Below, in pieces: positions 20,969 to 63,087 of a stretch of 64,000 nt of DNA (within the stretch, counting starts at the first letter, position 1; each line of letters opens with the position of its first letter). Source of the stretch: Henricia sp. BOLD:AAB3569. Its lineage: Eukaryota > Echinodermata > Asteroidea > Spinulosida > Echinasteridae. The translations under genes and the position numbers were made by a program. Below the pieces are notes generated by a model, which saw nothing but the letters and a program-made list of their open reading frames with translations, was not told the DNA's origin and made no database searches. The DNA is taken from the NCBI GenBank assembly GCA_037783545.1, contig JBBELK010000525.1, forward strand, positions 806,001-870,000. The letters are read 5' to 3'.

Positions 20969-20974
20969 ACTCCT

Positions 20975-40509: not shown

Positions 40510-40608
40510 GGATATGGGTTTTAACACCCTCGGGGGCTCATAGCACCCTCGGCGTTGCCTCGGGTGCTATGAGCTCCCTCAGGTGTTAAAACTCCATATC
40601 CCACACCA
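40510..40608. repeat. Hairpin
   Basis: atgggttttaacaccctcgg and gctcatagcaccc recur as complements after a short loop. Confidence 0.7.
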
Positions 40609-41407
40609 CACCAGTCAACAATTGTTTTGTTATATCCCTCTCCGTACAGCATAATAATATCGTTTCTATTATTTGGAATGTTGAAATTGTAAAAACAATT
40701 CGTCTCTGCACTTTCGCTAGTTTTCGGACTACTACCTGTGCGTGTGTAACATTGCGAAAGTAGCACGCGCACAGCGTGTGGAAAAATGCGATGTGCGTGC
40801 GCGTTGTGCGCCTCTAGCAGGCGTAAAACGCGGTTTATTTTACTAATGGAGCCTCATACAGCGCGTTACGCGTGCTATGGACAGGGGCAAGAACACGCAT
40901 AGTACGGCCGGGTGATATGAAGTTAAATTCGCATACGGCAGGGTGATATGAGTTTTTATCACATGGACATGTGACCGTTCTGGACCAATGAAACTGCAGT
41001 ATACCAAGACGGGGTATAACAAGTATTTTTGTGAAATTATTTTTCGCGATTACATTGAAAATAAACATTACTAATCAATGCACGGTGGTGAACACAACAA
41101 TCTCTAACAATATTGAAATAGAATGATTGAGAACACAACAAAAAAATCTGAAAATCTGTATATGTGTATGATCTTCAATATGTTTTGCATGCTATGGTAG
41201 CCAGTAGTCATGCATATAGACTGCGGACAGATTTTAATATTTTGCAATTTGGAGTGACGGTGGATTTTAAAATTTACAACATATACGCCATTTGCAGAAT
41301 CCTTGCAGTATAATGCTCCTCGTGTTTGTGCTATAGACCGTATCGAATAGCCGCTTTTGATTTATAATTATGGTTTTATTCCCGGAAACGCTCAAAAACA
41401 GATCATC

Positions 41408-41530
41408 TATAGACCGTATCGAATAGCCGCCATTTCGTGGGGCAGTTTCTTTGTTCCTTGAGGACATGCACGGTTGCACATATTGTGCTTCCATTGTTGA
41501 ACGAAATGGCGGCTATTCGATACGGTCTAT
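41408..41530. mobile_element. TA-type MITE, tatagaccgtatcgaatagc family, copy 1
   Basis: tagaccgtatcgaatagccg and catttcgt with complements at the other end. The core phrase cagtttctttgttccttgag, gacatgcacggttgcacata is shared with 49423-49571 and 52905-53065. A partial terminus and a scrap of the 540-bp MITE precede it at 41332-41405. Confidence 0.75.
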
Positions 41531-41869
41531 TGCTTTTTAATATACCGTGTAAATCTCGCGGCGGGTCACACTTCTGGGGACCAGGCGGGGAATGGCACTG
41601 AATAGGGTTTTAACGTTGTGACGATATTCCTTGAATTGTCATTTTACCTTACCTCGTTTGTAAGCGCCCAAACGCCAGGGGCACCTTAAATTCTACCGAT
41701 TCAATATATAAAATAAAAAAAATGTCTGAGCTTGTCACAAACAAATAACCAGATTGACCTATAGTTTCCGGTTTGCAAGACCTTTATAACGATACAGGCT
41801 CAGGTTTGGTGCATCTCAGAAATATTAACGTGGCTAAACAAATATTTGGTTTGAAGTCAACGGAGAATC

Positions 41870-43440
41870 AGATTGGCGTGTAGCGGTTCTTTCCTTGCCT
41901 TCCAGCAATGTGGCCCTGGTTCGATTCCCGTCTGAGTCAGCAGGCGCGGATCCAGGGGGGCACGTGCCCCCCGGGCAAATTGAGTCCAAAAAAAAAAAAA
42001 AAAATGGGCGGAAAGGAAAGGAGGTAAAAGAAAAAAGGGGGGAGGGCAAGTAGTGCACCATTGATAATTCTATGCACATGCGTATTGTATGATGATGCGT
42101 GAACATGTAGTGATATCAAAGTGTATACGAAAGCCAAGCCTTTGACTTTCAGGCTTACGATCAGCACTTATAATACACTCCCGTACACCACATTCTAATG
42201 CCTGAATAGTTTACGCTCAGGAGGAGCTTCACCATCAGAACTTATCATGATGCTTGGCATATGGAAACTAGTCAAGTCCAGTATTTCGTGTATATTTGAT
42301 TTCCATAAGAGCTTCAGTTATAAAAAAAAATCAAGGATGTGAGGTTGATAAAAAAGGATAAGATATTAAAGACGCAGAGGAAAAAATAAAGCCACTATCC
42401 AAGGTACACAGCGCATACGATTTGCTTTACTGTCATTATTAAGAAAAGTTAATTTTTCGTGTAAAATTTTTCCAATGACGATTGAAGTGACTTTTTTGTC
42501 TTCAAATACATACATTAGGTACTACCCTAATTGAGTTTGACCAGTTTTCGTTTGTTATCGGTAGTCTGTGAAGTCTGGTTTGCTGACCTGATTCCTCAAA
42601 GTATATAAATTGTTCTGTTTCGTCTGAAAAAGGTTCAAGGTATACCTTGTGGAATTTTTTGCCGAGGACAACTTGACGCCAATACACATAGGCCTGCCTA
42701 CTAATGGTCTATTATGTCTTGCAGCCGATCTGCCGATGTTTTAACACAGGGCATTAGGGCAAGGAACAGTCTGAAATCAAGTCCTTTTCTTGAACTTTTC
42801 AACTGGACTGAATTAAAACCAAGAAAAAATCCGGAAAAATAAGAAATGATGATGGGTAAAAACTGCATATTAAATGCCAAATTGGGGAGGGAGAAACTTT
42901 ATAGATTTTTGTCAACTTAACCGGGCGAAAATAATGGCTAAAAATAATGGCGAAAATAATTCTTCATACACACAATTCTCAAAACACACAACAATCTTCA
43001 AAACTTTTGCTTAAAAAAGTCAGTTAAAAGTGGCCAGGAATCGCCTTATATTGCACCACAGAGCATCTAGAATCCAAAATTTCGGGCTTCGCGCTACGCC
43101 CCCCAATTTGTCCCTTTTTGTTGTGCCCCTTTTTGTTGTGACTTAAAAAAGTCAGTTAAAAGTGGCCAGGAATCGCCTTAGATTGCACCACAGAGCATCT
43201 AGAATCCAAAATTTCCCGGGGCCCTTAACCGGGCCCCGGACCCCACGCCGTAAGGGCTTCGCGCTACGCGCTCGCATTTTTCCCTTTTTGTTGTGCCCCC
43301 CGTCTACAAAATTCCTGGATCCGCGCCTGGTCAGTACGTGGATTGGGTTCCGAGTCCCTGCTTGATTCCGTGAGTTTCCCCACACGTTGGTGTGTGGAGT
43401 TTTCCTCCCACCTCTAAAACTGAGAATTTCTTTCTCTCGC
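41870..43440 (+). repeat. tRNA-derived SINE interrupted by a DNA element
   Basis: The left part (41870-41940: ggcgtgtagcggttc, gttcgattcccgtc) and the right part (43330-43440: gtggattgggttc, gattccgtgagtttcccc, tttcctcccacctctaaaac) together match the uninterrupted SINE at 31087. The break falls exactly at the boundaries of the element at 41941-43329. Confidence 0.8.
41941..43329. mobile_element. TIR element caggcgcggatccagg, 5-bp TSD
   Basis: It begins caggcgcggatccagg and ends cctggatccgcgcctg, with gtcag duplicated at 41936-41940 and 43330-43334. About 1.39 kb. The right part contains a local direct duplication (agtggccaggaatcgcctta at 43032 and 43161). There is no transposase; the open frames in it are short. 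The superfamily is not assigned. Confidence 0.75.
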
Positions 43441-43952
43441 ACTTCGTGGCCGAGCTTAATAACCTATACATGTCAAATATTTACGTCGGCAAATCCTTCA
43501 GCAACTTGATTCCTTTAGAGAGAGTCAACTTACACGTTTACTTCTGTTGAGAGAAGATAAAACCACCAACAAAAGTACACACGGCAAGGACAAAAAATCG
43601 CAAAGACCGTCTGAAGCCGAATCAAGTACTTTTGAAAACAGCAAAATGGATTGTATTAGCGCCAAAACACGGGCCACTGGCGGACTACCAGCGATGCGCT
43701 GCGTGGTTTTTATATTACGTCAAGGGTTACCAGTTTATCTCAGAAACGGAAATAAAAGGTTACATTTATAATTTCGTGAATTTTTTGTTCAATTAACTTT
43801 TCCCACAAAAAATAAATGGCATTTTAAGAATTTTTAAAGTAGACACCGAATAGCTTAATGAAACTGCTTTTTATAATTTTGACGCGGAGCCTAGCCAAAA
43901 TTTGTAAATATAGCGATCATCCCCAGTCGAGACCTGGTACCGTAGATCTGTC

Positions 43953-46900
43953 TTATGCATCTGCAAGAAAAAAATATATATAATATCAGTATTTCAGTAA
44001 AAATCAGTTTTGTTTAAATCTACGGTATTTCTAATATCATGGGAGTACGTTCTTCAGGGATTAGCTTTTGTAAACATCAGCTGCGATACACAGGGGGGTG
44101 GTGCCATTCGCAGCCGATGGCCAGAGACACCAGGTAATCCCCCTTACTTTTACAAAAAGTGCACTGGGAATTTTTAAAGTACACAAAGCGCTGACCAACG
44201 GCTTCACATTCCTTCTGAAGGATTGAGCAATTGTGGTAAACTGGCTTGCTCAAGAGCACAGGTATACCACGACCGGGTATCGAACCCGCAACACCAAGTT
44301 TACACCTGAACGTTGTGGTTCAAGAAGACCCAAACGATTTGTGAGGACTTACAGGGACACCTGACCGACTCGACCAAACAAAACGTACCTCTACAACCGA
44401 GCACTTCAAATCGAATGCAGATATATCGTGCCCACTTCAGGGGTTGTATGCGCAGAAACTGTGTGCGCAGAACCTCGGGAAAGTAGTTAGTCACGTGGGT
44501 GTCATAATCGATATTAGCCTGAAACTGAATAACATGCGACAAACGGTAGTCAGTTTTGACTTCAAGTTTGGTTTAAGATTTGCGTGTTTTAAAATGGATC
44601 GCCCTATTTGAATATTCATAGATGTGCTATACATTACCACTTTGTTGGAGCCGTCAGTGTCCAATATGTACTCCAAACTGCCTTGACTGTTGCCATACTG
44701 GACGCTGTATGTTTTGGTCCAGACATCGCTGAAATGTCTACCCTGTGTTATCAGACCAACCACGGTAGTTGGTTGCTGCAGGTCAACCTGAATCCATTGG
44801 TCATTGGTGTTTGTGGTGCACCAGGCAGCTACGAGAAAGGAACCGCCAAAGTTTTGGAGGGTTCTTCCCATACGTGTTACACGGGGAAGTGATGTAAAAC
44901 AAGTGCGCCATACGAACAAATTTTCATTCGTGTACTTTTTTTTTTAAAGGCACAGACTCGTCAGTAATGCGCGCGCGCCAAATTCGTGCCACGAAATACG
45001 CAGCTCATAGCAAAGGCGACGAGCCTGTGCCTTTAATGTATATTCTGATAACTTATCTTTCCTAATTTAACGACTGACACAACATATTTATTCTGGCCAT
45101 TTTCTGTCGGTCCCTTGGATGGTTTTTCTTTGTTCATTATACTCAAAAATTTATAAAAAATAACTGATTTTCAGTTGCATCCAGCTGACCCTTATTGTCT
45201 AGTCAGTTTGACTAGATTTTCTAATCAGGATGACTAAAATCTCTGTAACGTTATAAACAGATATCTATAGTTAAAACAACTACCAGGCGGAGTCAGATTC
45301 ACTGGTGTAACTATATTTATAGTCATTTATCAGTAACTAGGTTTCCAGGGTCCGCTGGGTGCAAGGTTTTGACTGATTTCTAGTCAGATTTGACTAAGTG
45401 TTTTAGAAGACTATATATCTTAAAGGAGCATGACCAGATCACATTTTTTTCTCCCATACTTTTCCCGGTCTTATAGTCCCGTCATATTGTTATCATTACG
45501 AATCTGAAACTGCCGCGCTTCTAGGCCACATATTTCCGAGGATATCGTCGAAAAACCACAGACTGAAGTTTTGTAAACTACATGTATAATGTATGAAAAG
45601 CGGACAGCAGGATGTTGAACACACCGCCACATATGCTTCCACATAAAACAATTGGGGATGATGTGTTTCTGTCCCTATACTATTTTTGGTCCCTAGTCAT
45701 AGAGTTGTATAGCCGTAAGGCTTGTACACCATGTCCCTTGTAAGGTTTGTTCCTAGTACCCAGGCTTCATTTACGCGAATCGCTACACAGCGCTCTCATC
45801 GCGCCCCGACTATGTTGCATGAATCTGCCGCATGGTGGCGCCATACAGTTTTTTTCGGCTTGGGCTTCGGTAAACTGGTTCCCGCTCCACATATTCCACA
45901 TACAACGACTTAATATGAGGACCGGCAACTGTCGTGTTTAAAATAGCAATTTAAGCATTACGTCATGCATTTATTTTAGGAGCACCTAACCGTTAATTTT
46001 CAAAGCGCGCTGCGTGCTCTATGGCATGAGTGTACAACAATTTAAAAGGGGTTATTCCTTATTTGACTAATACAAATTTAATATATTAACCTTAAAATAT
46101 TAAATATGCCCATTCTAATCTACATGATGTAGGCTAGCATCAAAAAGAAAATTCAAACCTTGTCTGCATCACCCAGTGAGCTCCTACGGTTACCGTGACT
46201 ATAGCCACTGCGTAGTTTTAAATCCGTGGCATCACCATAAATACACACGCAGCAGTACGCGTACGTGCACGCGACGTCAATTCAAATTCAACGAATTGTA
46301 CCCGAGGATTAACGGTAACGTCCGGACGACCGGACGTGCATTCGGGTAACTTCGGGAACCTTCGGAAAAAGGAGGAATTCTTCCTGTTTCAAAATGGCGG
46401 AATTGGCGGCTGCCGGACCTTAAATTCAGTCTAGTAAAATAATTGTTGGTCCGGGTACTAGAATAGCGCTTCGGTAGATTGGTTCCCGATCCTATCGCTT
46501 ATTGCGAAAATATTAGGATCGGTAAAGGCGGCCATGACGGGCAGAAATCTGCCCGTGGTCACGTGGTTATTATTATTATTTTTTTTTAGTAAGTGCGTGT
46601 ATTTTGCATTGACATTTGTAACCCGGCCGTGCGTGTTGAACATATCCTAATGTAAATAAAGTACATTGCATAAAGCAAAGGGCTTCGCCAATTTTTAAAT
46701 ATAAAACACACAATGCGCACGCGCAAAGGCGACTAATCACAGATCAAGCGCCCTGTACCTGTCCTTATATTCTCCTATGTAGAATATGTGGACGGGAACC
46801 AGTCTTAGCGCTTCGGTACAGTTCCCAGAAGTTCAGCGCAGTGTGACACGGAGTGACACAGTATATGAATGGGCACCAGTCTCTTCCATGTCCGACGAGT

Positions 46901-49900
46901 TTGTTAGTTTGTCAATGTCAGTTCAAACAATTGGGTACGGTCATTAAAAGTCTTTTTGTTTCGAAGTACTGATCTTGTACATTTGGATATTTCGCTTGGT
47001 AGAAATTATGTTAGCTAGATATTAGCACTACAAAATATAGCCGGAAAAACAAACTTCAGTCCGATTTCGAATTCTGATTATAAAAGCGAATCAGCACGAT
47101 TTTAGTCTGGGAGCCCAGACCGATTTGTTCATCATCACGAGTACAAAAGGTCTGAGGCGTGGAATCAATAGGTGGGGCAAGTGTGACCTCCGAATGGCAT
47201 TTCTTAAGTTGCAGATCCTGTACCTAAGGGAGGGGGAGGCCCCCTTTTGACCCCAAAATCACTTTTATAAACATTTTCGAGTACATCGATCAAACCTTTA
47301 CCAAACTATCCTCTGGTGAACCCTAATTAATGATCGGCATTTCTTAAGTTGCAAATCCTGTACTTATAGTATGCTTAAGAAAGCCCTTGATAAGCAGTAA
47401 TTAGCGGTTTAATTATCATATCGAGTACATCAACCAAACCAACGGTAATAAATTCTCTGGGGTTTCCTGAGTAATGAATGACCTTTCTTAAGTGTCAAAT
47501 CCTGTACCAAATCCCCTTAAGAAAAGGTCAAAGGTCATTTATTTGCAGTACACACAACAGCCGTCGGCAAGCGGTTTAATCTCCGCTCGTTTTATGCGGA
47601 CTCAGGCGAAGTTATCTGGCACTGGGATGGTTGAAATAATTCTGCAGAGTACACTGGCCAAAGAAAGACGTTCTTAGTTCAGCTTCTGTGGCGATTTCAC
47701 TCGGGAGAATGTCAGTACCAGGTGAGACTGTGTTTGAACGCAACCAGTCAAAGGAAAGATTCCGTCTCCGCTATGGGTTCCGTAGACACATCGCTTTGAT
47801 GAATTTACCAGATTCTGTTTAGTGCACGTGTAATCAAATTCAAAATTTACAATTGCAATATTTGTCACCGTCAAAAGCCGCCGATTACATTATGGAGTGC
47901 CGAAGTGTGAGGTGTTGCCACGGTAATTGGCTCCAAACATCATGGCTGTCAGATAAAACACCATTCAAAAGCACAGGGAAACGGTTCAGTGATATTTAGC
48001 GTATACCAATTCCCAGCATTGCCTTGAGTGACGTATTTTCCTCGGTATAGCTCAAATGCATCGCAAAGGCGACTTTATCACAGGTCAGCAAACAATTAAA
48101 CGGCTAAAGCTGCATGTTTCTTCCTTTTTTGCCAAATACGTTGTATTAGAGCTAAGCTGTTTCCCCTATGAAACGGTCTTAGATGCCCACCGTGCATCCT
48201 CAGTCGTTCCGATGTCCGCTTATGCTTTTATGGTAACACTCCTTATGCGAAATCTGTAGTGTTCTGCACAAGACGTGATGTGTATCACCACATGTGCTCA
48301 CCGAAACATGTGCACACCAAGACATGGTGGCTTATGTTTAAAAATTTGAAAATGGGCACCCGTCAATTCGTGACAGTATGGATTTTATTTTTTTCAAATC
48401 TCTGTGCGGGTTTATGCATTTTCTGAAACTTTACATACGCACTTTGTTCACCATAATTAGAAACAAGTTTAGTTGCCAAAAAAATGCCACAAATGGCTGT
48501 CTCCGTGCACCGTGCAAGTCATAACATATTAAAATACATGCTGTACGTCCTTTATTAATGAATCAAAATTTTAATTATTTCAGAGAAATACTACTAAAGA
48601 TGTAAGGGCAAAAACAACCTTACTTAACACTACTAAAGATGTTCAAAGCAATGGTAACAAACACGACATCATAATTAGTTATAGCTGTAAGTACTTTTTG
48701 GTATCTGATAAAAGTGCGATTATACATTTGCATAGATGGGATACTTTAAAAAGCCATACTGATTATGACCATAACATTTTATTGAGTTACAATGGCCCTT
48801 TATAATTCTATAATGACCTCAGTCTGATTTATTCGATAAGTCATTCATCATTCAGGACACCATTTAAGTCTTTTTGGTTTGATTGTCGATTGTAAGACAG
48901 TTGTCATTTTGATAAGAATTTCATTTGATTATGGAATTATTGGGGATTGGGTAGTCTTGGGGTACCAAACGACAGAGTTAGGGAGGAAAGCACATATGTA
49001 AACAAATGGTGATGTCATTATGTTTCATGGTCCATTAATTTGGGATTAAAAATCCTGTGTTCACGTCTGCCAAAAGGCAAGGAAAACCGTACTTGCACCA
49101 ACCCGACCGGCGTGATCGAGTGATGACGTTCTGCTGTGTGATGGGCATTTTTTAAAACTATGGACCCGGCCACCATTGTTACGTCAGTTGTCAGGGTAAT
49201 TGGGTCTAAACAGTATTAAAGTAATATCGCGCGTCATTGTTTGTTGCTAAGGTTACTAGGTCAACACTAAACAAAATCTGGACTTCTTCCATGGGCTAAC
49301 TTAATGGCTTGATTCACATGGAATTTTTTCCCCGTAGATTTTACGAGCGTCGCTTTCAGGGAAAAGGTCGGGGGAAAAATAAATCCAGCACGATGTGACA
49401 AAGGGATTGCCCCACGTCCTCCTATAGACCGTATCAAATAGCCGAATTTCGTGGGGCAGTTTCTTTGTTCCTTGAGGACATGCATGGTTGCACATATTGT
49501 GCTTCCATTGTTGAACGGTTAAAGTAACGAAAGGTGCCCCACGAAATGGCGGCTATTCGATACGGTCTATATCTCAACACGCTCTTTCCTTTTGTTAACG
49601 CGGCAACAACTCCCCCTAAAACCTGAAAGGAGTTCTTTAAATTCCTTGAATATTTCAAAGACAATAGGGGAAATCACAATGGTGGGTGGGGGTGGGTATA
49701 TACACTCTGCATAATGAAAGGCCGGTGGATTTACACTGTCGAGGAAAAACGCCAACGCGAAGTGGCTTGAGCACTGCAGCCGATTTCACAAAACTTATAC
49801 GCAGTTGCGTAAGCCCACTTGCACAACATTTTATTGCGTAAGTTGCGCAACATTCTTCCGAAGATAACACACAAGCTATGGGGCTTGCGCCATTTGTCAA

Positions 49901-52285
49901 AAGTGCGCAAGTTGCGCAGTGTTTCGTAAAATCGACTGCAGGTCATTATCTTTAGGAGGTGTCAGAACCATAAGGCTCGAATTTTGGTCACGGCAAAGGA
50001 GTTATATTGCCACGAAAGTCACATTTATGGATTTGTTTTGTTTTCGTCGGTTTTTGATGTCCTTAAAGTAACGACGGAGTGCTCGACAAAGCACTTCGCG
50101 TTTGCGATTTACGTGCATCTATAAGACCTTCCTATTAAGGCGCGTTCACACTATCGCGGAAAAATCACACTGTTCCATTGGTTTGTACACAAACTGGTTT
50201 GCCGCTTGTGCGCGGCCTATCGCGATGCGCAAAACGTTTTGAGCTGGGTCAAAGTTCAAATTTGTTGAACTTTGACCGCGGTGCGCTGACCTTTCAAACG
50301 CGCAGCCAGTGAGGTATCAGAGAAGCCCCAAGTTACCAGAGTGGAATTTTCTATTTTGGAATAATCGGCGATTAGGAACTCATGCAATGCGGTGAGCGCA
50401 GCGCGAAAGTGTGAATTTTCCGCGATAGTGTGAACGCCCCTTTAGCCTTTTCGCGCGTAAATGCGACGCGCGTTGCTTTGACAAAAAGTGTCCTGGTTGT
50501 TGGGTGGGGCGATTTGGAGTGAAACGACGCGTTGAAAACCAAATGTTTCGCGTCACGATCACGTCAAGAGTTTTTTTAGCCATGCAGAACATACGTCAAA
50601 AACGCTAGCGAAAAAAAGGATCGGCTTTTCGTTAATCATGAATGCACATGGACTTGAAATTTACCATGCGTCGCCTGACATACTGTATGCGCGTACCGTG
50701 CGGATCCGTTCCATACCCAGTGTGGACTACCCAAAATACTTTCCAAAATACTCTATCCATGGGAATAAAACAATTCCAATCTCCAATTTAGATGTGGTAG
50801 CAAACAATTTTTTTCGGTGCAATCATTGTTCATGGAACCAGATAATAATTTACAGAATGTCTTTTTGAACGACATAGGCCTATACGGATTGAGAGCGCGA
50901 AATTTCAGAATGGTAACGAAACAATTGAGCACCACGCCGCCACCACCACCACCACATGTGGCTACTGGCTACGCTGCTGGGTGGAATACCTGGACGGTCA
51001 CTTATGAATACACTCAAACTATAACTTGACAATAACTTTATAATTTAGGAACTAGTAACGTCCCATGAATGCAACGTGTCTATACAGAATCCGTGGCGGA
51101 AATTTGCTTTGACTGCTTGCGTTGTCCATAGTCTCACCTGGTAGGCCTACTGACATTTTCTCGATTGAATTCGCTACAGAAGTTGAACTAAGAACGTCTT
51201 TCTTTGGCCAGTTTACTCTACAGAATTATTTCAACCACCCCAGTGTCAGAGAACTTCGCTTTAAGCCCGCCGCACACGAGAGCTATGTGCTGAGCAAAAA
51301 ATCATTCGTGGCCGATGGCGTAAGGAGATAGCTCTCGTGTGCGGGCAACTTACGTGAGCATTTGGTCACTCGTGCCACTTGAGACAAATATCTAACGTGT
51401 TTGATAATTTTGGCCTCGCGTGCCAAAAGTCTCACCGTGTGCGCTGAAATGAAAGGCAAGTGCTTACGACTCATAGACTGGCTTCACGGTTCACAACGTT
51501 TAACCCACTGGTAAAACCACTCTAACACACGTCAAAATAATTGTGCGGAGTGCCAACCAGTCTTTTTGTAGTTGGTAAAGTACGCATGCGCGGTGTCCTG
51601 ACACTGCAAAATGGCTGCGCAAAGTGAGTTGGTGAACGATGCGACTTTGGATGGACACCGGGCATGCGTACTTTACCAACTACAAAAAGACTGGTTGGCA
51701 CTCCGCACAATTATTTTTATTATTTAAAAGCGCTAGCCGTTCAAAACAAATGGGCCTTTTGCCGACGGCTGTTGTGTGTACTGCTAATGAATGACCTTTG
51801 ACCTTTTCTTAAGGGGATTTGGTACAGGATTTGACACTTAAGAAAGGTCATTCATTACTGAGGAAACCCCAGAGAAATTATTACCGTTGGTTTGGTTGAT
51901 GTACTCGATATGATAATTAAACCGCTAATTACGGCTAATTAAGGGCTTTCTTAAGCATACTAAGTACAGGATTTGCAACTTAAGAAATGCCGATCATTGA
52001 TTAGGGTTCACCAGAGGATAGTTTGGTAAAGGTTTGATCGATGTACTCGAAAATGTTTATAAAAGTGATTTTGGGGTCAAAAGGGGGCCTCCCCCCTCCC
52101 TTAGGTACAGGATCTGCAACTTAAGAAATGCCTTTCGGAGGTCACACTTGCCCCCCACCTATTGATTCCACGCCTCAGACCTTTTGTACCTCGTGATGAT
52201 GAACAGATCGGTCTGTATGACACCGCTTTCCATCCCAAGTGCAGGTTACGGCAAGATGAATGTCACGAAATATATAAAGTGGGGG

Positions 52286-52379
<94 letters not shown>

Positions 52380-54694
52380 GGGTGTGCCGCGAAACCCACT
52401 GCCCTCCAGAAAAGTCGCCTCCCCCCCCCGGAAATTTGGCAAACGGAGAAAATTATGATGGCATGGCTTTCCACAAATAACATGAGTACGCTCCGTAAGA
52501 ATTTTCATACTACATGTACTTCACTCTAATTATATTTCCTAATTTCACGATACACGCTACATCTCGAATGGATAATTTCCTCCAGGTTTGCCGAATTTCT
52601 CAGCTTTCGAGTGAAATGTCGATTACAAAGATCAACTAATGGGAAGTTACGGAGAAAAAAAAAGGAGTATCACATTTCTGATGTCCGGAAAGTCGTCAAC
52701 ATTTGTTGAGCACTATATTGAGTTGGCTCACTAAAACTGACCTCAGGTGCGTTTAATGCAATGCATTTCGTGAGTAACGATGTTTTCAAGCAATTTCTCA
52801 AGAGCTGTAGGAAAACGATGTTTAAACAAAATGGTTTTTGGTGATGCCAAGAACCCAACCCCACGTTTTGTGGAAATATGTAAGAGCTTGTCTTTATGTG
52901 CTCTTATAGACTGTATCGATTAGCCGCCATAATGCGAAACACCTGTTACATATAGCGATATATTACAGGCAGTTTCTTTGTTCCTTGAGGACATGCATGG
53001 TTGCACATATTGTGCCTCCATTATTGGTGCCCCAACGAAATGGTGGCTATTCGACATGGTCTATACCGTGTTTGTTGAGCCTGGATCTTTCCTTATAATA
53101 TCCCATAGACCCCACAGATGATGTTTGTAGTTGACTGTCCAGTATGGCGCCGCTTTCCATCCCGAGTGGGTCACGACAATCTGAATAGAATAAAATGCAA
53201 AGATTCTGGCCATGCTGACTCAAATGCAACCGAAAGTGGAACCTAATGGCTTAAAGATGTATTGTCCGTGCGTCTTGGTGCACCTCGAACAATATTTGTT
53301 TCTTGAATTTATATTTTTCTAGAAACATAAACGTTATTCGCTTTCAAATGAGACATCAACGAAAAACGACCAACGTTTACTTATCGAACAATTATTACCA
53401 TTACTGTCAATAATTCGAATTATTGGCGGACCGCCACTACAGCGTGCCCCTCTGAACTTGTGGCATGTCTGATCTGCTTTCTGAACAATTATTACCATTA
53501 CTGTCAATATTTCGAATTATTGGCGGACCGCCACTACAGCGGTGCCCTCTGAACTTGTGGCATGTCTGATCTGCTTTCTTCTTTCCGAGACAGAAGAAAA
53601 GAAATTAGACAGGCCACTAACCCAGAGGGCGCGCTGTACGCTGCGCATTAAAGACCAAACACGGGAGGTCAGACTTGGGCAAGTCTAGGTAAGGCGCAAA
53701 AAAAAACGGCCGTATAAAAGCGTTTTTTTTACAGGGTTGCTGATGTCTAAAATACAAAGTATGATGTTTTTTTCGTTAAAATTAAGTAGGCCTAAATGCT
53801 TTAACAATTCGTTTGGAGAAAATTCGAATTTGTAGAGAACCACGGACAATATAATTTTAAAATCAAGCGAATGGTTTTTCTTGACTATGAACTGTTTTGG
53901 TAGTCTGCTACCGGCTCTGTACTTACTATTGATGGTTGAGTTTTCAATGCCATCTTTTATCAAGATGCAACGAGGTGAATTACTGCCGAACACCGTTACT
54001 GAAAAATAAAGAAACCAAACTCGGGATAAGAGAACAATAAATTGATAAGGAATGGTCACGTTACACGCCGCGTTTAATTTGACAATCAGCAGCATGACAA
54101 AACTGCCGAATTTTCACAATGAATGTAAATTTGTAACATCCTATACTAAATACTTGCAAAATTTAAGATCAGATAAAGTTCGGACAAACCCTAATTAACA
54201 TTCAGTCTCCCCGACGCAAGCTAAATCAATTTCTGATTAATCCCCGTTGCGAAATTATTCGAACCGGCCATTCAAACACCGGCTAGCTCGGTGGTCGAGT
54301 GATTAAGACGTCTGTCGTGCTTGTAGGAGGTCGTGGGTTCGAGTCCCACCCGAGTACGCTATGAAGTTTTTCATAGTGTCTCGGAAAAGCAATAAATATA
54401 GAGTGTTAATAATTACCTCGGGTAAGGGCAAAACAAATCCTAATTAACATTCAGTCTCCCCGACGCAAGCTAAATCAATTTCCAAGTTCAGACTTGTTAA
54501 ACAATCATCTGATTTCTAATAAATCTTCATAATGGGTTGTTTTTGGTTTCTGTTATTTTTAAACCAAATTCACCATTCTTCATGCACGTTACAGTATACA
54601 AAATTCAGAACTTACCAGTAAATACTGCACTCAGTGTCAAAAGTGTTGCCCCCAAAGCCCTACCCGCAAAGCCTCCATGCGGCCGCGTTGCCAT
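43953..54694 (-). CDS. Secreted F5/8 type C (discoidin) domain protein, copy 1
   Basis: Minus-strand exons: 54616-54694 (signal peptide: MATRPHGG..., ALGATLLTLSAVF), 53927-53998, 53067-53180 (NCRDPLGMESGAILDSQLQT, start of the discoidin domain), 44638-44863 (FLVAAWCTTNTNDQWIQVDL, VVGLITQGRH, SVQYGNSQG), 44389-44524 (NYFPEVLRTQFLRIQPLKWA, then CIRFEVLGC) and 43953-43960, which adds only Asp-Ala and a stop. Phases match at every junction except between 53067 and 44863 (phase 1 against 2), where I may be missing a small exon. The domain shows the usual start PLGMESG, WIQVDL core and final cysteine. Such secreted discoidin proteins bind glycans or anionic phospholipids; the ligand here is unknown. 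The exon at 53067 has a MITE in its donor, so this copy may be poorly spliced. Confidence 0.8.
44095..44300 (-). repeat. tRNA-derived SINE, copy 2
   Basis: Same family as 30000-30222, between the last two F5/8C exons. The B box appears on plus as gggtatcgaacccgc. The same SINE is at the equivalent place in copy 2 of the gene (58430-58630), so it predates the duplication. Confidence 0.7.
44944..45036. mobile_element. Hairpin MITE, aaaggcacaggctcgtcag family
   Basis: A 93-bp copy with intact outer ends and a shortened core. It lies just upstream of exon 44638-44863 and is absent from the equivalent place in copy 2, so it probably arrived after the duplication. Confidence 0.7.
45470..47115. repeat. 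Intron block shared with 62260-62850
   Basis: Patches such as gaatctgaaactgccgcgct, agcggacagcaggatgttga, accagtctcttccatgtccg and gtactgatcttgt recur in the same order at 62265-62800. Copy 1 has an extra segment (about 45900-46800) not in copy 2. It includes ccgatcctatcgcttattgcg, (att)n and gggcagaaatctgcccg, which reappear inverted inside 61560-61690. Confidence 0.6.
47580..49420. other. Interior of the 5.1-kb element, nothing recognised
   Basis: Plain AT-rich sequence. A degenerate scrap of the 33081-type MITE (caatggtaacaaacacgac) is at about 48640-48680. No gene, RNA or clear repeat otherwise. Confidence 0.4.
49423..49571. mobile_element. TA-type MITE, tatagaccgtatcgaatagc family, copy 2
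   Basis: 149-bp hairpin element with the conserved core cagtttctttgttccttgag, gacatgcatggttgcacata. Confidence 0.75.
49777..49941. mobile_element. MITE, ctgcagccgatttcacaaaa termini
   Basis: 165 bp bounded by ctgcagccgatttcacaaaa and the complement of ctgcagtcgattttacgaaa. The internal gcgcaac words are inverted about the centre. Confidence 0.7.
50137..50443. mobile_element. MITE, gcgttcacactatcgcgg termini, copy 1
   Basis: cgttcacactatcgcggaaa at the left and ttccgcgatagtgtgaacgc at the right. Shared internal words are gttcaaatttgttgaactttgacc and agagaagcccc. Related copies are at about 60027-60298, 60466-60801 and 61356-61560. Confidence 0.7.
51268..51346. repeat. Hairpin
   Basis: cgcacacgagagctat and its complement, about 79 bp apart overall. 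Confidence 0.6.
51532..51716. mobile_element. MITE with 58-bp TIRs
   Basis: caaaataattgtgcggagtg and ccaaccagtctttttgtagt... at the left, with complements at 51660-51716. The internal part contains aaaatggctgcgcaaagtgag. Confidence 0.75.
52216..52260 (-). pseudogene. Truncated extra copy of the first discoidin exon
   Basis: tatgacaccgctttccatcc and caagtgcaggttacggcaag match the exons at 63087-62974 and 53180-53067 over about 43 bp. The exon's 3' part is missing exactly where the 5.1-kb element begins. A one-base change and an indel (gtgcaggtta against gtgggtta) break the coding phase. It is a dead partial duplicate. Confidence 0.7.
52278..52380. repeat. Poly(G) tract of about 100 bp
   Basis: An almost pure G run with a single C interruption near 52336, ending gggagggtgtg. 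It can form G-quadruplexes on this strand. The glycine and proline frames through it are artefacts. The length is suspect because such runs are hard to sequence. Confidence 0.85.
52400..52904. other. No gene seen
   Basis: Short intronic or intergenic stretch between the poly(G) run and a MITE. Confidence 0.4.
52905..53065. mobile_element. TA-type MITE inserted in a splice donor
   Basis: tatagactgtatcgattagc at the left and complement at the right, with the family core gacatgcatggttgcacata. Its right end replaces bases +4 and beyond of the 5' splice site of the exon at 53067-53180. The equivalent site in gene copy 2 (about 62964-62980) lacks it. Confidence 0.8.
53390..53690. repeat. Dispersed repeat, copy 2 of 2
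   Basis: Relative of 34785-35055. It begins with a local direct duplication of about 92 bp (attattaccattactgtcaa at 53392 and 53484), then tttccgagacagaagaaaag and accaaacacgggag. Confidence 0.6.
54185..54480. repeat. Direct 48-bp repeats bracketing a tRNA-like sequence
   Basis: ctaattaacattcagtctcc followed by ccgacgcaagctaaatcaatt occurs at about 54190-54231 and again at about 54438-54479. Between them, 54280-54360 has a tRNA-like layout: gtcgagtgattaagac (D arm), a poor anticodon stem, then gtgggttcgagtcccac (perfect T arm) and ccgag pairing with ctcgg. It is most likely a tRNA-derived SINE head, not a working tRNA, because the anticodon stem pairs badly. Confidence 0.55.
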
Positions 54695-54699
54695 GCAGC

Positions 54700-56040
54700 A
54701 GATCTTGTAAGTCTCGCCTCTTTATCAACACAAATTAAAAGCTTTGGTCTTTTACCAATCAGACCCTGACTATTTATTCCCTCAACTTATTTCAACACTT
54801 TTAACACAAGATAAAAAAAGTGTCCACTGCGTAGTCAAATACACTGTATTTACAGATACGCCAAACCGTCTGCCCAGTGGAAAGATTGACATTAACCTGA
54901 CAATAGGCTAATGATTCGTCAATGTCGCCCGTAGTTGCCTAGACAACGATTAGACCAAACAATATATTGGGCTGAAATTCTGAATACATAAAAACTAGCA
55001 ATAAGTTATAAGAAGAAACACCGAGCATACTGACTGAGTATTGTCACCCTGTCGCAATTTGGCATCGATCGTTTGTCAACGCCATATTGTGGTTGCACTC
55101 AAGTAAATACGCCGAGATCAGGTGTACATGTATTGCCCCTGCACTAGACTTGATATCAAGTCAGTATACGGGCGTGTTTTGGTCCGTCTGACGCCTTTTT
55201 TTCCGTGCACGATCGATAGCATTTTTTATGTACAGTATATATTTTTGGTTTCGACACGTATACCGACTTGAGAAACATGTTTACGCGCCAATGTTTATGA
55301 ATTTATGGCGCGTAATAGATAAGCACGCTGTTGCCACAGGACGAGCCAATAGAAATTCATCCATGCACCTATCAATCTTTTTTTTACCAGAGGGGATCTA
55401 ATGTTTAAATTAATCAGTCAGGGCATTTTCAATAAATACGTATCTTTATTCAGTTGAACTGCATTTAGCTTTTAGCAAAATGTAGTAAGTCTTCTTTGAG
55501 TCACGAGTATTCACACTGCACATATATAATGTACAATAAAATAATACATAAAAATTATCTCCGGCTACGATTTTTATTTTTTTTTTTCAACAAAAACTCG
55601 GGCCAACTGGAAGGTCGAGTTATTAGTATGATTATGTCTCATTTGTAAATTCTGAAGTAATGGATACTGGTAGGTCCACTGATTAAGGAAATATAATTGA
55701 CAAACAACTTTTTGAATATTATTAAAGCCCCGTATTTTGACCAATCAAATATCACGTTCAATTTATGGTAACAAACTCCTTATCCCGTGTACAAAGTGGC
55801 AAACAACTTTGTCAAGTCGGTAACTGCGTCAATGGACGTCGACTAGACTAGCTCCCAGTCGATTTCATTTCCAAATTAATTTAGCTCCATTTTTTCGTCA
55901 AGGACTACTGGTAAATGTGAAATTTCTTTTCGTATTCGCACGACATCTGTTCGTGCATTGTACCATTCAGGACAATGCTTTATTGTTCACTTGCATAACT
56001 GCGTGACACATATAAAGCCACGTATGGGCTTTTTAACTCA
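54700..56040. other. Upstream region of F5/8C copy 1, no gene seen
   Basis: Presumably the promoter region of the minus-strand F5/8C gene near its start, then plain intergenic DNA. No clear TATA box or repeat stands out. Confidence 0.4.
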
Positions 56041-56310
56041 CTCTCGGTCAAGCAGTTGATCTTGCTGTACAGAATCCCGCCCAATCCCTAACTCCCTAGC
56101 ATCGCATTGGTTCTTCGATTCAGTCCCGGGGAGTGCACCCCCGCCGGGCGCCCTGGATGCACCCACGTTTCCCCCACGCGGGGTTTTTCGTGGCCACCGT
56201 AGGCGCTCGACACTGAATTGAAGACCATACGTTTTTTACAGCACAACAGTTACGAATTGTGGTTGGTTGAGGAATTTACAGTTTCAAATATGAATGACTT
56301 TATAAACTGA
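56041..56310 (+). other. GC-rich leader of the recombinase element
   Basis: Contains cccgccgggcgccctgg and cccccacgcggggtttttcg. Its base composition differs from the flanks, so it may be the untranslated 5' part of the mobile element encoding the adjacent recombinase. Confidence 0.35.
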
Positions 56311-57355
56311 ATGACGTCTTTTGCGTCTAGAGAGTTGTACTGTTTGGTCGTTTTTGCGTTTCTTTTAACAGAAATATGGCACAACTTTTCCAAATCCATC
56401 ACCGACCCGTCGCTCAAAGTCTTAGCATTTACCAAACTACCCGCCCTCCTGATGTCGGCGAAAGCTACTTCCACTACCAAGAGGTACATGGCTACATGGG
56501 CACGATGGGAAGCTTGGGCATCTTCTCATCATGACGTAACTGTATTCCCGGTCAGCTCCCTGCATTTTTGCCTATACGTCACCCACCTCGCCACAACGGG
56601 CCAGAAATCTACCGCCGAGTCCGCAGCAGCCGCCATCAAGTGGGTTCATTCCTTGTCGAACTTGCCGTCACCCACCGACACTCCCATGGCGAAGACAGCA
56701 CTTCAGGGCTTCAGACGCATGAACGCCACGCCCACACACAGGAAAGAGCCAATAACGCCGGACATTATGAAAAAAATATTTGTGGCCCATGGACACTCAT
56801 CCGCCGATCTGGCCGATCTACGCATTTTGTTTATATGCTTTGCGTCATACGCGGGTTTTCAACGACCTAAGCAAGATTACACGTAAAGACTGTATCATTA
56901 CGCCCGATAGGCTCACCATTCATCTCAAATCCTCAAAAACTGATCAATTTCGCAACGGCGCTGACATTGTGATAGCCAGAACATTTAAAGATACCTGTCC
57001 AGTAGCCGTCGCAGAGCGGTTTTTTGCCGCACTTGGCGATCCTATTGATTGTGAATTGCCATTGATTTGTAGATTTACAAGATGTAGTAAAGGCCTGATT
57101 CCCACAGTTCATCCTTAGAGTTACACGCGTACGAGAGAGATTGTTTTGGAATCCCTTAAACCACATGTGTCAAACTTGTCTTTGTATGGCCTGCATAGTT
57201 TGAGATCAGGCGGAGCCAGTGCAGCATTTAATGCCCAGGTTCCACCTTTGTTAATATCGAAGCAAGGTAGATGGAAAACAGAAAGCGCCAGAAATGCTTA
57301 TTTTAAGTTTGACGAAACTTTGTCTCTCCTCCCGTCCAAGTCGGTCGGAATTTAA
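56311..57355 (+). pseudogene. Degenerate tyrosine recombinase of a mobile element
   Basis: Three pieces of one gene: 56311-56886, continuing in the next frame at about 56860-57118, then after an in-frame TAG (57116-57118) at 57119-57355. The first piece has the N-terminal SAM-like part (KATSTTKRYMATWARWEAWA, then SSLHFCLYVTHLA) and ends near SYAGFQR, where the first catalytic Arg is expected and the frame breaks. The last piece holds YGLHSLRSGGASAA (the H-x-x-R box) and GRWKTESARNAYF (the W/H and the catalytic Tyr). This is the layout of DIRS/Ngaro/Crypton-type integrases common in marine invertebrates. It carries a frameshift and a stop, so it is inactive. An AATAAA follows at about 57427. 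It lies on plus between the two F5/8C copies. Confidence 0.8.
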
Positions 57356-57426
57356 TTTTGCCTTTAAGAACCAATTCCGAATATTTTGTACCTAATTTAC
57401 CTAATCGAAAGCCTTATTGAATTGTA

Positions 57427-57432
57427 AATAAA
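57427..57432 (+). terminator. Polyadenylation signal after the recombinase
   Basis: aataaa in ttgtaaataaagatt, about 75 bp past the stop codon on the same strand. Confidence 0.4.
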
Positions 57433-57642
57433 GATTAAGTGGAAAATAAATTACAGCCAGATTCACTCACGACCACACCAGCTGTACACCATGGAACAAC
57501 TCGTGTTTTGCGTTTTTTATTACATCGTGCATTTCACCTTTAATTGATGAGGGAGAATTAGAAAAGAAATGAATTTTCTGACGTAAGCATGAAGGAAGAA
57601 AGTATAGCTTTAATCACCAGTCGAGACGTGGTCGGCATGTTT

Positions 57643-60600
57643 TTATGCATCTGCAAGAGAAAATACCAGGAAATCGTTTTGTCTGAATTAAGTGCTATAG
57701 GCTAGTCTTTGAGAAATGAGTAAAAACAATTATGCACCTATCAATTGTTTCCCCCCCCCCCCCCCCCCCACTACCCAACCCCCACCCCCCCCCCCCCCCC
57801 CCCCCCCACCCCCCGGGCAACACCACCTAAGAGGTGGGATTGTCACTTTTTGCGTGACAAAATCCCCACCCCTGGGGCAACATTTAGGTGACAAAAATCC
57901 CCACCCTCGGGTGCAAAACATGCGCAAAATGCACAAAAATGCAGAGAAAATGGGCCAAATGCCCCACCCTGGGGCATAAAAAAATGTGACCAAATCCCCA
58001 CCTAGGGGGTGAGGCAGCGCGGGGGGCGGGGAGGGGTGGGGGAAACAATTGATAGGTGCATTAGTTTTTGTCTCATAAGACGAAAATTCAATTCGCGCCA
58101 AAACCATTCCGCCCAATAGCCATTTCTCTCCAAACTACTTCGCCCGAGTGCCATTTCGCCCCAAATCACTTTGTCCAAACACTACATCGCCCAAATGCTA
58201 CTTCGCCCAAAACCACTTCGTGCACAGGCCGTGGTTCAGGGCGAAATTGGTCAGGGCGAAGTGACTGCAAACCCTTTTTTGACGGAGCTGGGTTTTGCTC
58301 AGGTTGGTTTTAATCATGCATATCTTAAATCACACAGGGGGATAAAACTAATTGTAGCTTTAACACACACAAAATAAGTATTTCTATAATGAGATTAAGT
58401 TGTTGAGATACACAAGTGCATGGTCGGGTGGCGCCAGAGAAATAGAGTAATCCCATTTACTCTTTATTTTAAAACAAAAGTGCTCTGGGAACTTTAGGTA
58501 CCCTGCACAACACACTGAACCATTGGCTTTACATCCCTTTTAAAGGATGGAGCAATTATGGTTAAGTGCCTTACTCAAGGGCACAAGTACCACGATCGGG
58601 TATCGAACCCGCAACACCAAGTTTACACCTGAACGCTGTGGTTCAAGAAGACCCAAACGATTTGTGAGGACTTACAGGGACACCTGACCGACTCGACCAA
58701 ACAAAACGTACCTCTACATCCGAGCACTTCAAATCGAATACAGATATTTCGTGCCCACGTCAGGGGTTGTATGCGCAGAAACTGTGTGCGCAGAACCTCG
58801 GGAAAGTAGTTAGTCACGTGGGTGTTATAATCGATATTAGCCTGAAACTGAATAACATATGCGACAAACGGTATAGTCAGTTTTGACTTCAAGTTTAGTT
58901 TAAGATTTGCGTGTTTTAAAATGGATCGCCCATTTCTATTTGAATGTTCATATAGATGTGCTACATTACCACTTTGTTGGAGCCGTCAGTGTCCAATATG
59001 TATTTCAAACTGCCTTGACTGTTGCCGTACTGGACGCTGTATGTTTTGGTCCAGACATCGCTGGAATGTCTACCCTGTGTTATCAGACCAACCACGGTAG
59101 TTGGTTGCTGCAGGTCAACCTGAATCCATTGGTCATTGGTGTTTGTGGTGCACCAGGCAGCTACGAGAAAGGAACCGCCAAAGTTTTGGAGGGTTCTTCA
59201 CATACGTGTAACACGGAGAAGTGATGTAAAGCAAGTGGGTGATTATTTATATTCGGGTACCAAAGTGTGACATGCACATTTTAGGCCCCAAATCTATAAA
59301 TCATCACCATGCATCCTTTATTTTGTAAACCTATTGCCATTAATAAGTTTCTTGAAAGTAATGGTATGTAAGTTCTTTTCAGGGGTTCAAGATTCATGTA
59401 CACCCTCTAAATATCTCCATTCATCGAAAAATTGTGGGTTTCACGTGTAACAGGAAACCAAAATGCTTTTATTGACATTAGGACGACACTAAAATCCGTT
59501 TCATATATTTATGTGTCTACTTTACATGACTTGGTCATTTTGAAGCTAGAAACTCTGTGAATTAGTCTGTCGGTGTTTTCATCACACTTTTATGATACGA
59601 AAACAAAGTTTCACGTGTAACGCTTTTAGGAGGAAACCAAAGTTTTTTTGCCTAAAATTTCAAATTCAAAAATTTGTTGCGCTGCATGTTTAAATACGGA
59701 GCCCGTAAAGGGACATGAGTGAAAAAAAAGTTTGAGAAATATTTACGTTCGATCGAAAAATATCTTCGTGCGAACGAAAAATAATTACGTTCGAACGAAA
59801 AATATCTTCGTGCCAACCAAAACAATCTTCGTTCGAACGAAAACAATCTTCGTGCGAACGAGAAATATCTTCGTGCGAACGAAAATAATCTTCGTGCGAA
59901 CGAACATAATCTTCGTGCGAACGAACAAAAATGCGCGTTGGAAAGATAACCGCACCGCGGTCAAAGTTCAACAAATTTGAAATTTGACCCAGATCGATTT
60001 TTCCGCGATAGTGTGAACGCCCCTTAAAGGGAAGTTCACACTATCGCGGAAAAATCACACTACTGCGCTGCGCTCACCGCCTTGCATAAGGTCCCAAGCG
60101 TCGATTTCTCAAAAAAAAAATAAACTCCGCAACTTGGGGCTTCTCTGATACCTAATTGGCTGCGCGTCGGAAAATTCAGCGCACCGCGGTCAAAGTTCAA
60201 CATATAGGCCGCGCGCAAGCGGCAAACCAGTTTCTGTACAAACCTATGGAGCAGCTGCTCGCAAAGCCATTCTCCCGCGATATTGTGAACGCCCCCTATA
60301 GACTGGATTCACACAGCCTCATTTTTTTCGCGAGTAAAGCGGCCTTTCCTTAGGTCCGTTGTTCATCCGTCTCGTGCATGCGTTGTGTTTGCGTCTGAAT
60401 CGCAGAATTGCGCAAACGCAACGCACGCAAAACGGATGAAAACGGACCAAAGGAAAGGCGCCTGCAGGGGCGTTCGCACTATTGCAAAAAAAATAACACT
60501 GCCGCGCTGCGCTCACCGAAAGGTAAACATAATATGGCACGCATGATGGACCGCACGATGGCAAACAAGCGGAAAACTGTACTAGTGCGCGGCCTACCGC

Positions 60601-63087
60601 GACGCGCAAAACGTAAAAGCTAACATTTGTTGAAGTTTGACCACGGTGCGCTGACCTTTGAGGCAACCAATGAGGTATCAGAGAAGCCCCAAGTCACCGG
60701 GGTTAAATTTTCTATTTGGGAAAGATCGGCGATTGAGACATCATGCACTACGGTTAGCGCAGCGCGGCAGTGTGATTTTTCCGTGATAGTGTGAACTCCC
60801 CTTAAAGGCCAGTGGATCATTTGCAATGACCCCAAAAAGTAATCGACGAGTTTACAGGGGAAAAGTTCTGAAAGTAAAGATTGAATTAATAGCAACTTCC
60901 CAATGAAAGGTTTTCGCTCAAAATGATATAATTTTACCAGAAAATAATCCGTAAAGATGAAATTATTTAGATCGTTTGCAAACGATTTACTTATTTTTGG
61001 TTCGCATCTACGCGGTCCAAAATGCATGGGCGCTGTGTACTGTGTGCGTGTACTGTGTACTGATCGCGCGCACACGCAGTATGTGCGCCACAGAGTGCAT
61101 GACGCAAGCCACATATAGTACCCGATCAACTAAGAACAAATATTTGAAACGCCCCGCCAAGGCCAGGAAAATGCATATGGATTTTCATGTTTTTTTAAAC
61201 GTGGTACATTTGACAAAGCTGAAATTTCTTCGGATGAGTTTGTTGATGTCTTTCTTATGATTTATAATGGTTTTATTCGCAGAATCGCTCAAAAACAGAT
61301 CATCTACAGGGCCTTTAACATAGCCTTTCAACTCGCGAACAAAAATAAGGCTGAAGGGGCGTTCACACTATTGCGGAAAAATCACACTACCGTGCTGCAC
61401 TCACCGCATTGCATGAGCACCAAATCGCCGATCTTTCCAAAATAGAAAATTCAACCCAGTTGGGCATCTCTGATGCCTCATTGGCTACGCGTTGGAAAGG
61501 CCAGCACACCGCAATAAAAGTTCAACAAATTTTAACTTTGACCCAGCTCAACAACAACAAAATTATAATAATTACCACGTGACCACGGTAAAGGGCATTA
61601 ATGGCGGGCAGAATTCTGCCCGTCATGGCTGCCTTTACCGATCCTCATATTTTCGCAATAAGCGATAGGATCGGGAACCAATCTACGCGGCCTATCGCGA
61701 CGCGCAAAACATTTCGAACTGGGTTAAAGTTCAAATTTGTTGAACTTTAACCGCGGTGCGCTTACCTTTCCAACACGCAGAACTTTTGTTTTCGTTCGCA
61801 CGAACTTTAAATTTCGTTCGCACGAAGATCGTTTTGTTCGCACGAAGATTATTTTCGTTCGCACGAAGATTGTTTTCGTTCGCACGAAGATTGTTTTCGT
61901 TCGAACGAAGATTGTTTTCGTTCGAACGAAGATTGTTTTCGTTCGAACGTAAATATTTTTCGTTCGAACGTAAATATTTTTCGTTTGAACGTAAATATTT
62001 CTCAAACTTTTTTTTTCACTCATGTCCCTTTACGGGCTCCGTATTTAAAAGCTCCACGAAAATACAATATAACTAAAAATGTAGCTCCACAAATGTTGTT
62101 AATGTGGTCTTTAAGGTTTCACAACTAAAATATTAGGGGGAAACCAAACTGGCCCGTCGAGATTCAAAATGACCAGATTTTTATTGTTTGCTTACATTTT
62201 TATGTTTAAACATTCAGCTTATGGGTCCCGAGATTTTTATATCATAACATTCGTCATTCTTTTCTCATCACGAATCTGAAACTCCCGCGCTTCTAGGCCA
62301 CATATTTCCGAAGATATCGTCGAAAAACCACAGAAGTTTTGTAAACTAATTATGGAGAGCGGACAGCAGGATGTTGAACACACCGCCACATATGCGGCCA
62401 CATAAAAAGATTGGGGATGGGTGTGTGTTTCTGTCCCTAGTAAGGTTTGTCCCTAGTACCCTGGCTTCATTTACGCGAATCGCTACACAGCGCACCATCG
62501 CGCCCCGACTATGTGGCATGAATATGCCGCGTGGTGGCGCCATACAGTTTTTGTCGGCTTGCGCTTCGGTACAGTATCCAGAAGTCAGCGCAGTGTGACA
62601 CGGAGTGACACCGTTATATGAATGGGCACCAGTCTCTTCCATGTCCGACGAGTTTGTTAGTTTGTCAATGTCAGTTAAAAAATTGGGTACGGTCATTAAA
62701 AGTCTTTTTCTTTCGAAGTACTGATCTTGTGCATTTGGATATTTCGCATGGTGGACATTATGCTATAGCTAGATATTAGCACTACAAAATATAGCCGGAA
62801 AAACAAACTATGATTATAGAAGCGAATTTGTGTCGTGTCACTATTTAGGCCACAATCAACTTACTCTACACTTTTTACCTTAGGCCTAATATTTGTATTT
62901 GTTTGTTCTAAATAGTATGTTTTGGAGTTATTTTATTATTGTTAAGGTAGATCAATTGAACCAGTGCTCTTACCATGGGTATTGAGCCTGGATCGCTCTT
63001 TATAATATCCCGTGTTCCCCACAGATGATGTTCGCAGTTGACTATCCAGTATGACACCGCTTTCCATCCCAAGTGGGTTACGGCAAT
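57643..63087 (-). CDS. Secreted F5/8 type C domain protein, copy 2 (5' end outside)
   Basis: Minus-strand exons: 62974-63087 (PLGMESGVILDSQLRTSSVG, RSRLN), 58970-59195, 58712-58847 and 57643-57650 (Asp-Ala-stop). The lengths of the three discoidin exons (114, 226, 136) equal those of copy 1, and the frames are open. The donor of the first discoidin exon is a good gtaaga. As in copy 1, the first junction does not match in phase (1 against 2), so a small exon may be missing from both models. The signal peptide and linker exons would lie beyond 64000 or are lost. Sequence is nearly identical to copy 1 in the shared exons, pointing to a recent duplication. Confidence 0.75.
57725..58063. repeat. 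Inverted-end segment with poly(C) runs
   Basis: tgcacctatcaattgtttcc at 57732 and its complement ending near 58062 bound a segment starting with C runs (57752-57815) and ending in G-rich sequence. The inside repeats caaaatccccaccc-like phrases. The Pro- and Gly-rich frames are artefacts of composition. Confidence 0.6.
58064..58370. repeat. Dispersed repeat with cttcgccc words, copy 2
   Basis: Inverted relative of 25690-25975, with about eight degenerate units of a phrase like ccacttcgcccaaa and the end word caggttggttttaatcat. Confidence 0.6.
58430..58630 (-). repeat. tRNA-derived SINE, copy 3
   Basis: Same SINE as 44095-44300 at the matching intron position of gene copy 2: ttactcaagggcacaagtac and gggtatcgaacccgc on plus. 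Confidence 0.7.
59745..59935. repeat. 17-18 bp minisatellite, left array
   Basis: About ten to eleven units of atcttcgtgcgaacgaaaa with point variants (gttcg/gtgcg). Confidence 0.85.
60027..60298. mobile_element. MITE, gttcacactatcgcgg family, copy 2
   Basis: gttcacactatcgcggaaaa at the left and ccgcgatattgtgaacgccc at the right. A half-copy with the same terminus is immediately to its left (59950-60026). Confidence 0.65.
60466..60801. mobile_element. MITE, gttcacactatcgcgg family, copy 3
   Basis: ggggcgttcgcactattgc at the left and tttttccgtgatagtgtgaac at the right, with shared words agagaagcccc and gcgacgcgcaaaacg. Immediately left is an inverted pair (cggcctttccttaggtccgt / acggaccaaaggaaaggcg, 60340-60460). 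Confidence 0.65.
60802..61318. mobile_element. MITE, ttaaaggcc family (540-bp), copy 3
   Basis: Very close to 26682-27228 throughout, including gtggatcatttgcaatgacc and gatcatctacagggccttta, except for the variable cgcgc region in the middle. Confidence 0.75.
61785..62000. repeat. 17-18 bp minisatellite, right array (inverted)
   Basis: About eleven units of the complement, ttttcgttcgcacgaagat. It is the inverted partner of 59745-59935. Confidence 0.85.

Follow-up and report, generated by a model that had tools for sequence, protein, structure and literature searches.

The window analysed here is the 64,000-nt stretch of the Henricia sp. BOLD:AAB3569 assembly (740.7 Mb) that corresponds to C525:806001-870000, C525 being contig JBBELK010000525.1; positions are those of the window unless a contig or locus is named. 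Its minus strand holds part of an array of discoidin (F5/8 type C) units, in which exons of units A and B are accompanied by a further first exon, C1, and by several repetitive elements (Table 1). When joined, exons C1, A2 and A3 are open in frame and score 80.6 bits against the Pfam profile F5_F8_type_C (PF00754; curated cut-off, 28.2 bits), compared with 84.0 bits for the joined exons B1, B2 and B3, whereas exon 1 by itself matches no Pfam family. The best-scoring solved structures are a venom factor-V-like subunit, neuropilins, factor V and factor VIII.

Table 1. Features of the discoidin array and associated elements in the window (exon/intron boundaries are marked by a slash).
Feature	Position	Strand	Description
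MITE, third copy	41410-41529	.	120 bp; TA on the left, TT on the right; outer left TIR from 41334
Exon A3	44389-44524	-	Discoidin domain, unit A
Exon A2	44638-44828	-	Pfam F5_F8_type_C; next intact discoidin exon downstream of C1
Inverted-repeat element, 5.1 kb	47117-52214	.	Abuts the A1 relic; arms of ~455 nt, 96.5% alike over 459 aligned positions
MITE, second copy	49425-49569	.	145 bp; TA on both sides
A1 relic	52215-52261	-	Truncated relic of the first exon of unit A; lacks the acceptor AG and the 3' part, carries a 2-bp insertion
Target-site duplication, distal	52905-52906	.	TA; intron side in gene orientation
MITE at C1	52907-53063	.	157 bp; imperfect 24-bp terminal inverted repeats (TIRs), strong predicted hairpin
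Cryptic donor-like site	52937-52942	-	CAG/GTGTTT inside the MITE; G of GT at 52942; in-frame TAG before the site
Target-site duplication, exon side	53064-53065	.	TA; donor positions +2/+3
Exon C1	53067-53180	-	First exon of F5/8C (discoidin) domain; 114 nt, phase 1-1; donor ACG/GTATAG
Exon B3	58712-58847	-	Unit B
Exon B2	58970-59160	-	Unit B
Exon B1	62974-63087	-	Paralogue of C1; donor ATG/GTAAGA

Two sets of tandem repeats also lie in the window. Repeats of 21 bp (CGTTCGAACGAAAAATA-like) at 59713-59951 and 61823-62015 form a pair of arms in opposite orientation, separated by about 1.9 kb, in the B1-B2 intron, and repeats of about 78 bp occupy 14224-15028 and 20157-21194; the latter may, by their resemblance, be tRNA-derived.

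Insertion of a MITE at the C1 donor

An earlier note on this DNA had proposed that a TA-target MITE has landed in the splice donor of a discoidin exon (its copy 1, here C1), with the element terminus supplying donor positions +4 to +6. Read directly on the minus strand, the C1 donor is ACG/GTATAGACC, and that of B1 (copy 2 of the earlier note) is ATG/GTAAGAGCAC, or ATG/GTAAGAGCACTGGTT over a longer stretch. Removing the element and one TA yields an empty site, ACG/GTAAGAGCACATAAAG, whose joined flanks are identical to B1 (GTAAGAGCAC) over positions +1 to +10 and divergent beyond, so that the flank does resume past the element as in copy 2 over those positions. The alignment of joined flanks against copy 2, put forward in the note as a refuting test, leaves a simple TA insertion standing. 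Because the ten-base match is in part donor consensus, only its last few bases argue for common descent. The intron start of a unit on a second contig, C1102 (unit D), likewise agrees with the reconstructed C1 intron start, and as a close relative of B1 this unit is not an independent witness for the empty site. Stronger support for the insertion comes from the element itself, through its terminal inverted repeats and its other copies. The reconstructed intron start (52880-52907 joined to the exon side) can also be drawn as a possible 8-bp hairpin at the donor (GTAAGAGC/GCTCTTAC).

The two termini of the element differ at five of 24 positions, the element folds into a strong hairpin (z = -6.96), and it combines terminal inverted repeats and a TA target-site duplication with a short, repeated, hairpin-forming body, as expected of a TA-target MITE. 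Searching for TIR pairs in the window and 36 loci returned five, three of which are flanked by TA on both sides (the C1 element, the second copy and L016:4029-4175), while the remaining two have a common right end with TT outside; the pairs other than that at C1 span 120-196 bp. Aligned with the other window copies, the C1 element shows 14 differences over 120 sites and 19 over 126, and 3 differences over 119 sites separate those copies; part of the divergence reflects a poorly aligned left portion, and for this reason we assign no age to the C1 element. The exact TIR had no match in viral contigs. At one locus (L034; C830:246800-253800), the intron that follows a discoidin exon 2 contains a terminus of the same family, starting near +18, and the paralogues differ beyond the position of that terminus; a second end of this copy was not found in the TIR-pair search.

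In our reading, the TA at donor positions +2/+3 behind C1 was the target of a non-autonomous TA-target DNA element. Since insertion at a GTA donor duplicates the TA, GTA was kept, and the element terminus replaced only the bases from +4 onward, placing TAG where AGA had been. At the level of the sequence, the insertion, its target-site duplication and the change from GTAAGA to GTATAG are well established, and the proposal of a MITE that provides +4 to +6 of the donor is upheld by the flanking TA pair, the TIRs and the additional copies.

Two other accounts of the same bases carry very little weight. It is highly improbable that the apparent insertion is a chance similarity or an assembly error: the match to B1 past the element extends for just 7-8 bases and there is a ~100-nt G tract at a distance of roughly 0.5 kb, but the TA duplication is exact and flanks termini that other copies of the repeat family define independently. 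Even less credible is a nested intron, of introner or stwintron type, whose removal would restore the original donor; the MITE does split the donor and base pairing between its ends is possible in RNA, but the excisions that restore GGTAAG are, by eye, bounded by TA or AT, and not by GT-AG, GC-AG or AT-AC. These boundaries led us to reject a stwintron, and we rejected an introner since the paralogues B1, U2, U3, U5 and D (described below) end in a donor-like sequence at the corresponding position, with no element there. The G tract itself spans 52283-52378, and similar tracts occur at 73230, 82357 and 92645 in coordinates of the extended window.

Origin and context of exon C1

The sequence of the C1 and B1 exons differs at 19 sites (dN 0.094, dS 0.668), against dS values of 0.05-0.07 for A2/B2 and A3/B3. 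Units A and B align in four collinear blocks with 4-9% substitutions, one of which includes exons 2 and 3, and outside the exon C1 and B1 have almost nothing in common. We read C1 and B1 as old paralogues, and exons 2 and 3 of units A and B as recent duplicates. The unit A exon that we take to correspond to B1 through the recent duplication is the A1 relic, and not C1. In place of the 3' part of this relic stands the 5.1-kb inverted-repeat element, for which no clear target duplication was apparent by eye. In a five-sequence tree without support, C1 groups with U2 and not with B1. An 861-bp query across the C1 locus, for which 40 of 2543 candidates were scored, gave 41 matches (the locus itself, 39 rows of dispersed repeat and one row of adjoining stretch); the locus was the sole full-length match, and none of the matches was a pre-insertion copy of C1. 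The unaltered version that the earlier note placed 10 kb away is thus B1, which does carry GTAAGA but is an old paralogue and no pre-insertion copy.

Pfam scans of the minus strand (34.2-64.0 kb) recovered exons 2 and 3 of units A and B only, and no exons 2 and 3 belonging to C1 were found in the window. Nor did tblastn find another intact exon 1 between B3 and A2; with the first exon of unit A wrecked, C1 is the sole intact first exon found in that interval. In C1 the acceptor is intact, the frame open and the donor GT retained, and A2, which provides the first intact discoidin acceptor downstream, matches C1 in phase. It follows that C1 could serve as a replacement first exon of unit A.

Examination of C525 for 80 kb past the window revealed further units, U2, U3, a decayed U4 and U5. 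The exon-1 donors of U5, U3 and B1 are GTAAGA, and that of U2 is GTATAG. A MITE search of the U2 stretch returned no copy, and all three U2 exons have open frames; its intron start, GTATAGAACAC, is in our reading a one-base insertion relative to GTAAGAGCAC. In the decayed U4 (107952-110401 in window coordinates on C525), exon 2 is split and exon 3 contains an in-frame stop, and exon 3 of U3 and of U5 runs into a stop directly after the domain.

Contig C1102 is collinear with the window and 91-97% alike over the flank pieces compared: 798000-800237 pairs with window 9492-11707, 811000-813500 pairs in two blocks, and 825776-830499 pairs with window 38666-44333 in four blocks separated by other repeats. 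It has a single unit, D, which is 84-95% alike to A or B depending on the block, with the downstream flank of A and the upstream flank of B; D exon 3 equals A3 (0/135 differences), and D exon 1 is intact with a GTAAGA donor. C1102:825500-843727 lacks C1 and its adjoining MITE, and the MITE family copy that it does contain corresponds to the window copy at 41410. Compared with window 38666-66278, this interval holds one discoidin unit in place of several. The simplest reading is that C1102 represents a second haplotype with fewer units, in which case array copy number would vary, C1 included; a recent large duplication could also account for the difference.

Since its own exons 2 and 3 are missing from the window, C1 may be a relic that is never spliced. 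An insertion into an exon already orphaned, with no functional consequence, is an unlikely but serious contender. The Pfam scans and the absence of C1 from C1102 agree with it, as does the surrounding sequence, in that 52262-57599 had no match in the flanking sequence of unit A or unit B apart from the exon and a G tract, and 53793-55121 matches a region near the decayed U4 at 91%. It is opposed by the intact acceptor, the open frame, the GT and the downstream A2 in matching phase, together with an excess of synonymous change between C1 and B1. Synonymous changes make up 11.5 of the 19 differences, with 26 of 111 sites being synonymous (binomial test as 12/19, p = 2.5e-4), which implies that purifying selection acted on the pair through much of its history. 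With U2 used for polarisation (108 bases, 18 changes), the counts are five synonymous and four non-synonymous changes on the C1 branch and five and two on that of B1, with two ambiguous; such counts are too few to show recent constraint, or to date or exclude a later loss of use. The open frame has no power by itself, as the probability of no stop is 0.77 after seven random substitutions and 0.51 after 19.

Predicted consequences for splicing

We scored the altered donor with two matrices. With a generic Shapiro-Senapathy-type matrix, made for another clade, the score falls from 77.1 for the empty site to 39.6 with the MITE, a value reached by 26% of the GTs in the window; the A2 and B2 donors score 54.0 and the cryptic site inside the MITE 57.7, above the altered donor. 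The U1 duplex weakens in parallel, from -8.2 to -4.4 kcal/mol. A matrix built from 20 donors of the discoidin family gives 6.78 for the empty site and 4.30 for the altered donor; when the family donors are left out one at a time, 11 of the 20 score below the altered donor, and 1% of the GTs in the window reach its score. The two matrices disagree, the family matrix resting on few sites and the generic one having been made for another clade.

The family table comprises 17 distinct 9-mers, three of which occur twice (U5 exon 1/B1, L017 exon 2/L018 exon 2 and A2/U2 exon 2), and includes L034 exon 2, whose MITE terminus at +18 leaves the donor untouched. It leaves out C1, B2 and B3 (identical to A2 and A3), unit D, exon 2 of U5 (ambiguous end), the decayed U4, exon 3 of U3 and U5 (which read into a stop and have no donor), exon 1 of L018 and L022 (no clear end) and repeats of listed donors (L019, L020, exon 2 of L023, L024, L027-L033 and L035). 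GTATAN occurs in four of the 20 donors, with no MITE end at any of them: besides GTATAG in U2, GTATAC follows U3 exon 2 and L025 exon 1, and GTATAT follows L026 exon 1, all of these being predicted exon ends and not observed junctions.

On balance, we favour a C1 donor that the insertion has weakened but left usable, such that splicing of C1 to A2, if the gene is transcribed, would be reduced. The donor would be weaker in U1 pairing yet within the range of predicted donors of the discoidin family, and C1 would still be joined to A2 with lower efficiency. Two leak products are predicted. Skipping of C1 would be neutral to the frame, because the exon is of phase 1-1, and would give a domain without its first 38 residues; as the domain without C1 still scores 74.8 bits against F5_F8_type_C, the profile says little on the need for this exon. 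Use of the cryptic donor at 52942 would lead to a premature TAG, since, as in read-through, the sequence G-I-D-H-V-E is appended and followed by the stop.

That the insertion abolished use of the donor altogether, with C1 skipped or read through to the TAG in the MITE, seems to us improbable. The fall in the generic score and in U1 pairing and the short read-through tail would suit it, as would the prediction that positions +4 to +6 are paired in the stem of the MITE hairpin (unpaired probability ≤0.05), but U2, itself known from sequence, carries the identical hexamer without a MITE and has three open exons. Mean predicted donor accessibility, moreover, is no worse for C1 (0.35) than for B1 (0.35) or the joined empty site (0.31), and differs by less than one SD from that of a control with shuffled element body (0.46, SD 0.14). 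Structural occlusion was accordingly rejected as the main effect, and because predicted accessibility fails to separate the altered donor from the controls, RNA structure was not used as evidence. The earlier description of a transposon-altered splice site stands as regards the change of donor; the harm that it implies is presumptive, with U2 bearing GTATAG and four of the 20 family donors GTATAN without a MITE end, and the C1 donor is best called altered and no more than that.

A milder outcome can be envisaged, although we think it doubtful, in which the terminus TATAGA (TA target included) reads as +2 to +7 of a donor accepted in this species and insertion into GTA donors would be nearly splice-neutral, giving the element a built-in safe landing. 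Were this true, the MITE-free GTATAG of U2 would be a natural control, and more donor insertions would be expected genome-wide.

Discussion

MITEs at splice sites and mis-splicing caused by MITEs are in print (PMC6593561, PMC12595863, PMC6522560), and exonization of Ds1 has been surveyed by simulation (PMC5432752). In one published system, MITEs located at splice sites add or disrupt such sites; the C1 element likewise lies at a splice site, but in an animal-type gene of another genome, with the insertion exactly at the TA of the donor and GTA kept. A further likeness is to the cadherin gene of the pink bollworm, where a MITE in an animal gene affects splicing (PMC6522560); that element, however, lies in an exon with an AC target duplication and mis-spliced transcripts were observed, whereas the C1 element lies in a donor and its effect is predicted. 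In a limited look at open papers, judged by title and the start of the abstract, we found no TA-target MITE exactly at positions +2/+3 of an animal donor.

MITE-like introners form splice sites from their target-site duplications (PMC9860276), and, as at C1, the duplication or terminus becomes part of the 5' splice site. Introners make new introns, whereas the C1 element modified a pre-existing donor and created none. In [D1,2] stwintrons (PMC12403724), an inserted unit splits the 5' donor and the near-termini can pair, as at C1, but splicing removes the inner units as introns, whereas the excision restoring the C1 donor lacks intron boundaries.

The insertion at C1 is an ordinary event of a known type in an unusually well-controlled setting. 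It offers a compact natural experiment, with one donor rewritten by a transposon, the same hexamer present without a MITE two units upstream (U2), and GTAAGA comparators at B1, U3 and U5 in the array and at D on the second contig. The locus bears on the splicing cost of changing GTAAGA to GTATAG, and on whether GTA donors can receive TA-target elements cheaply.
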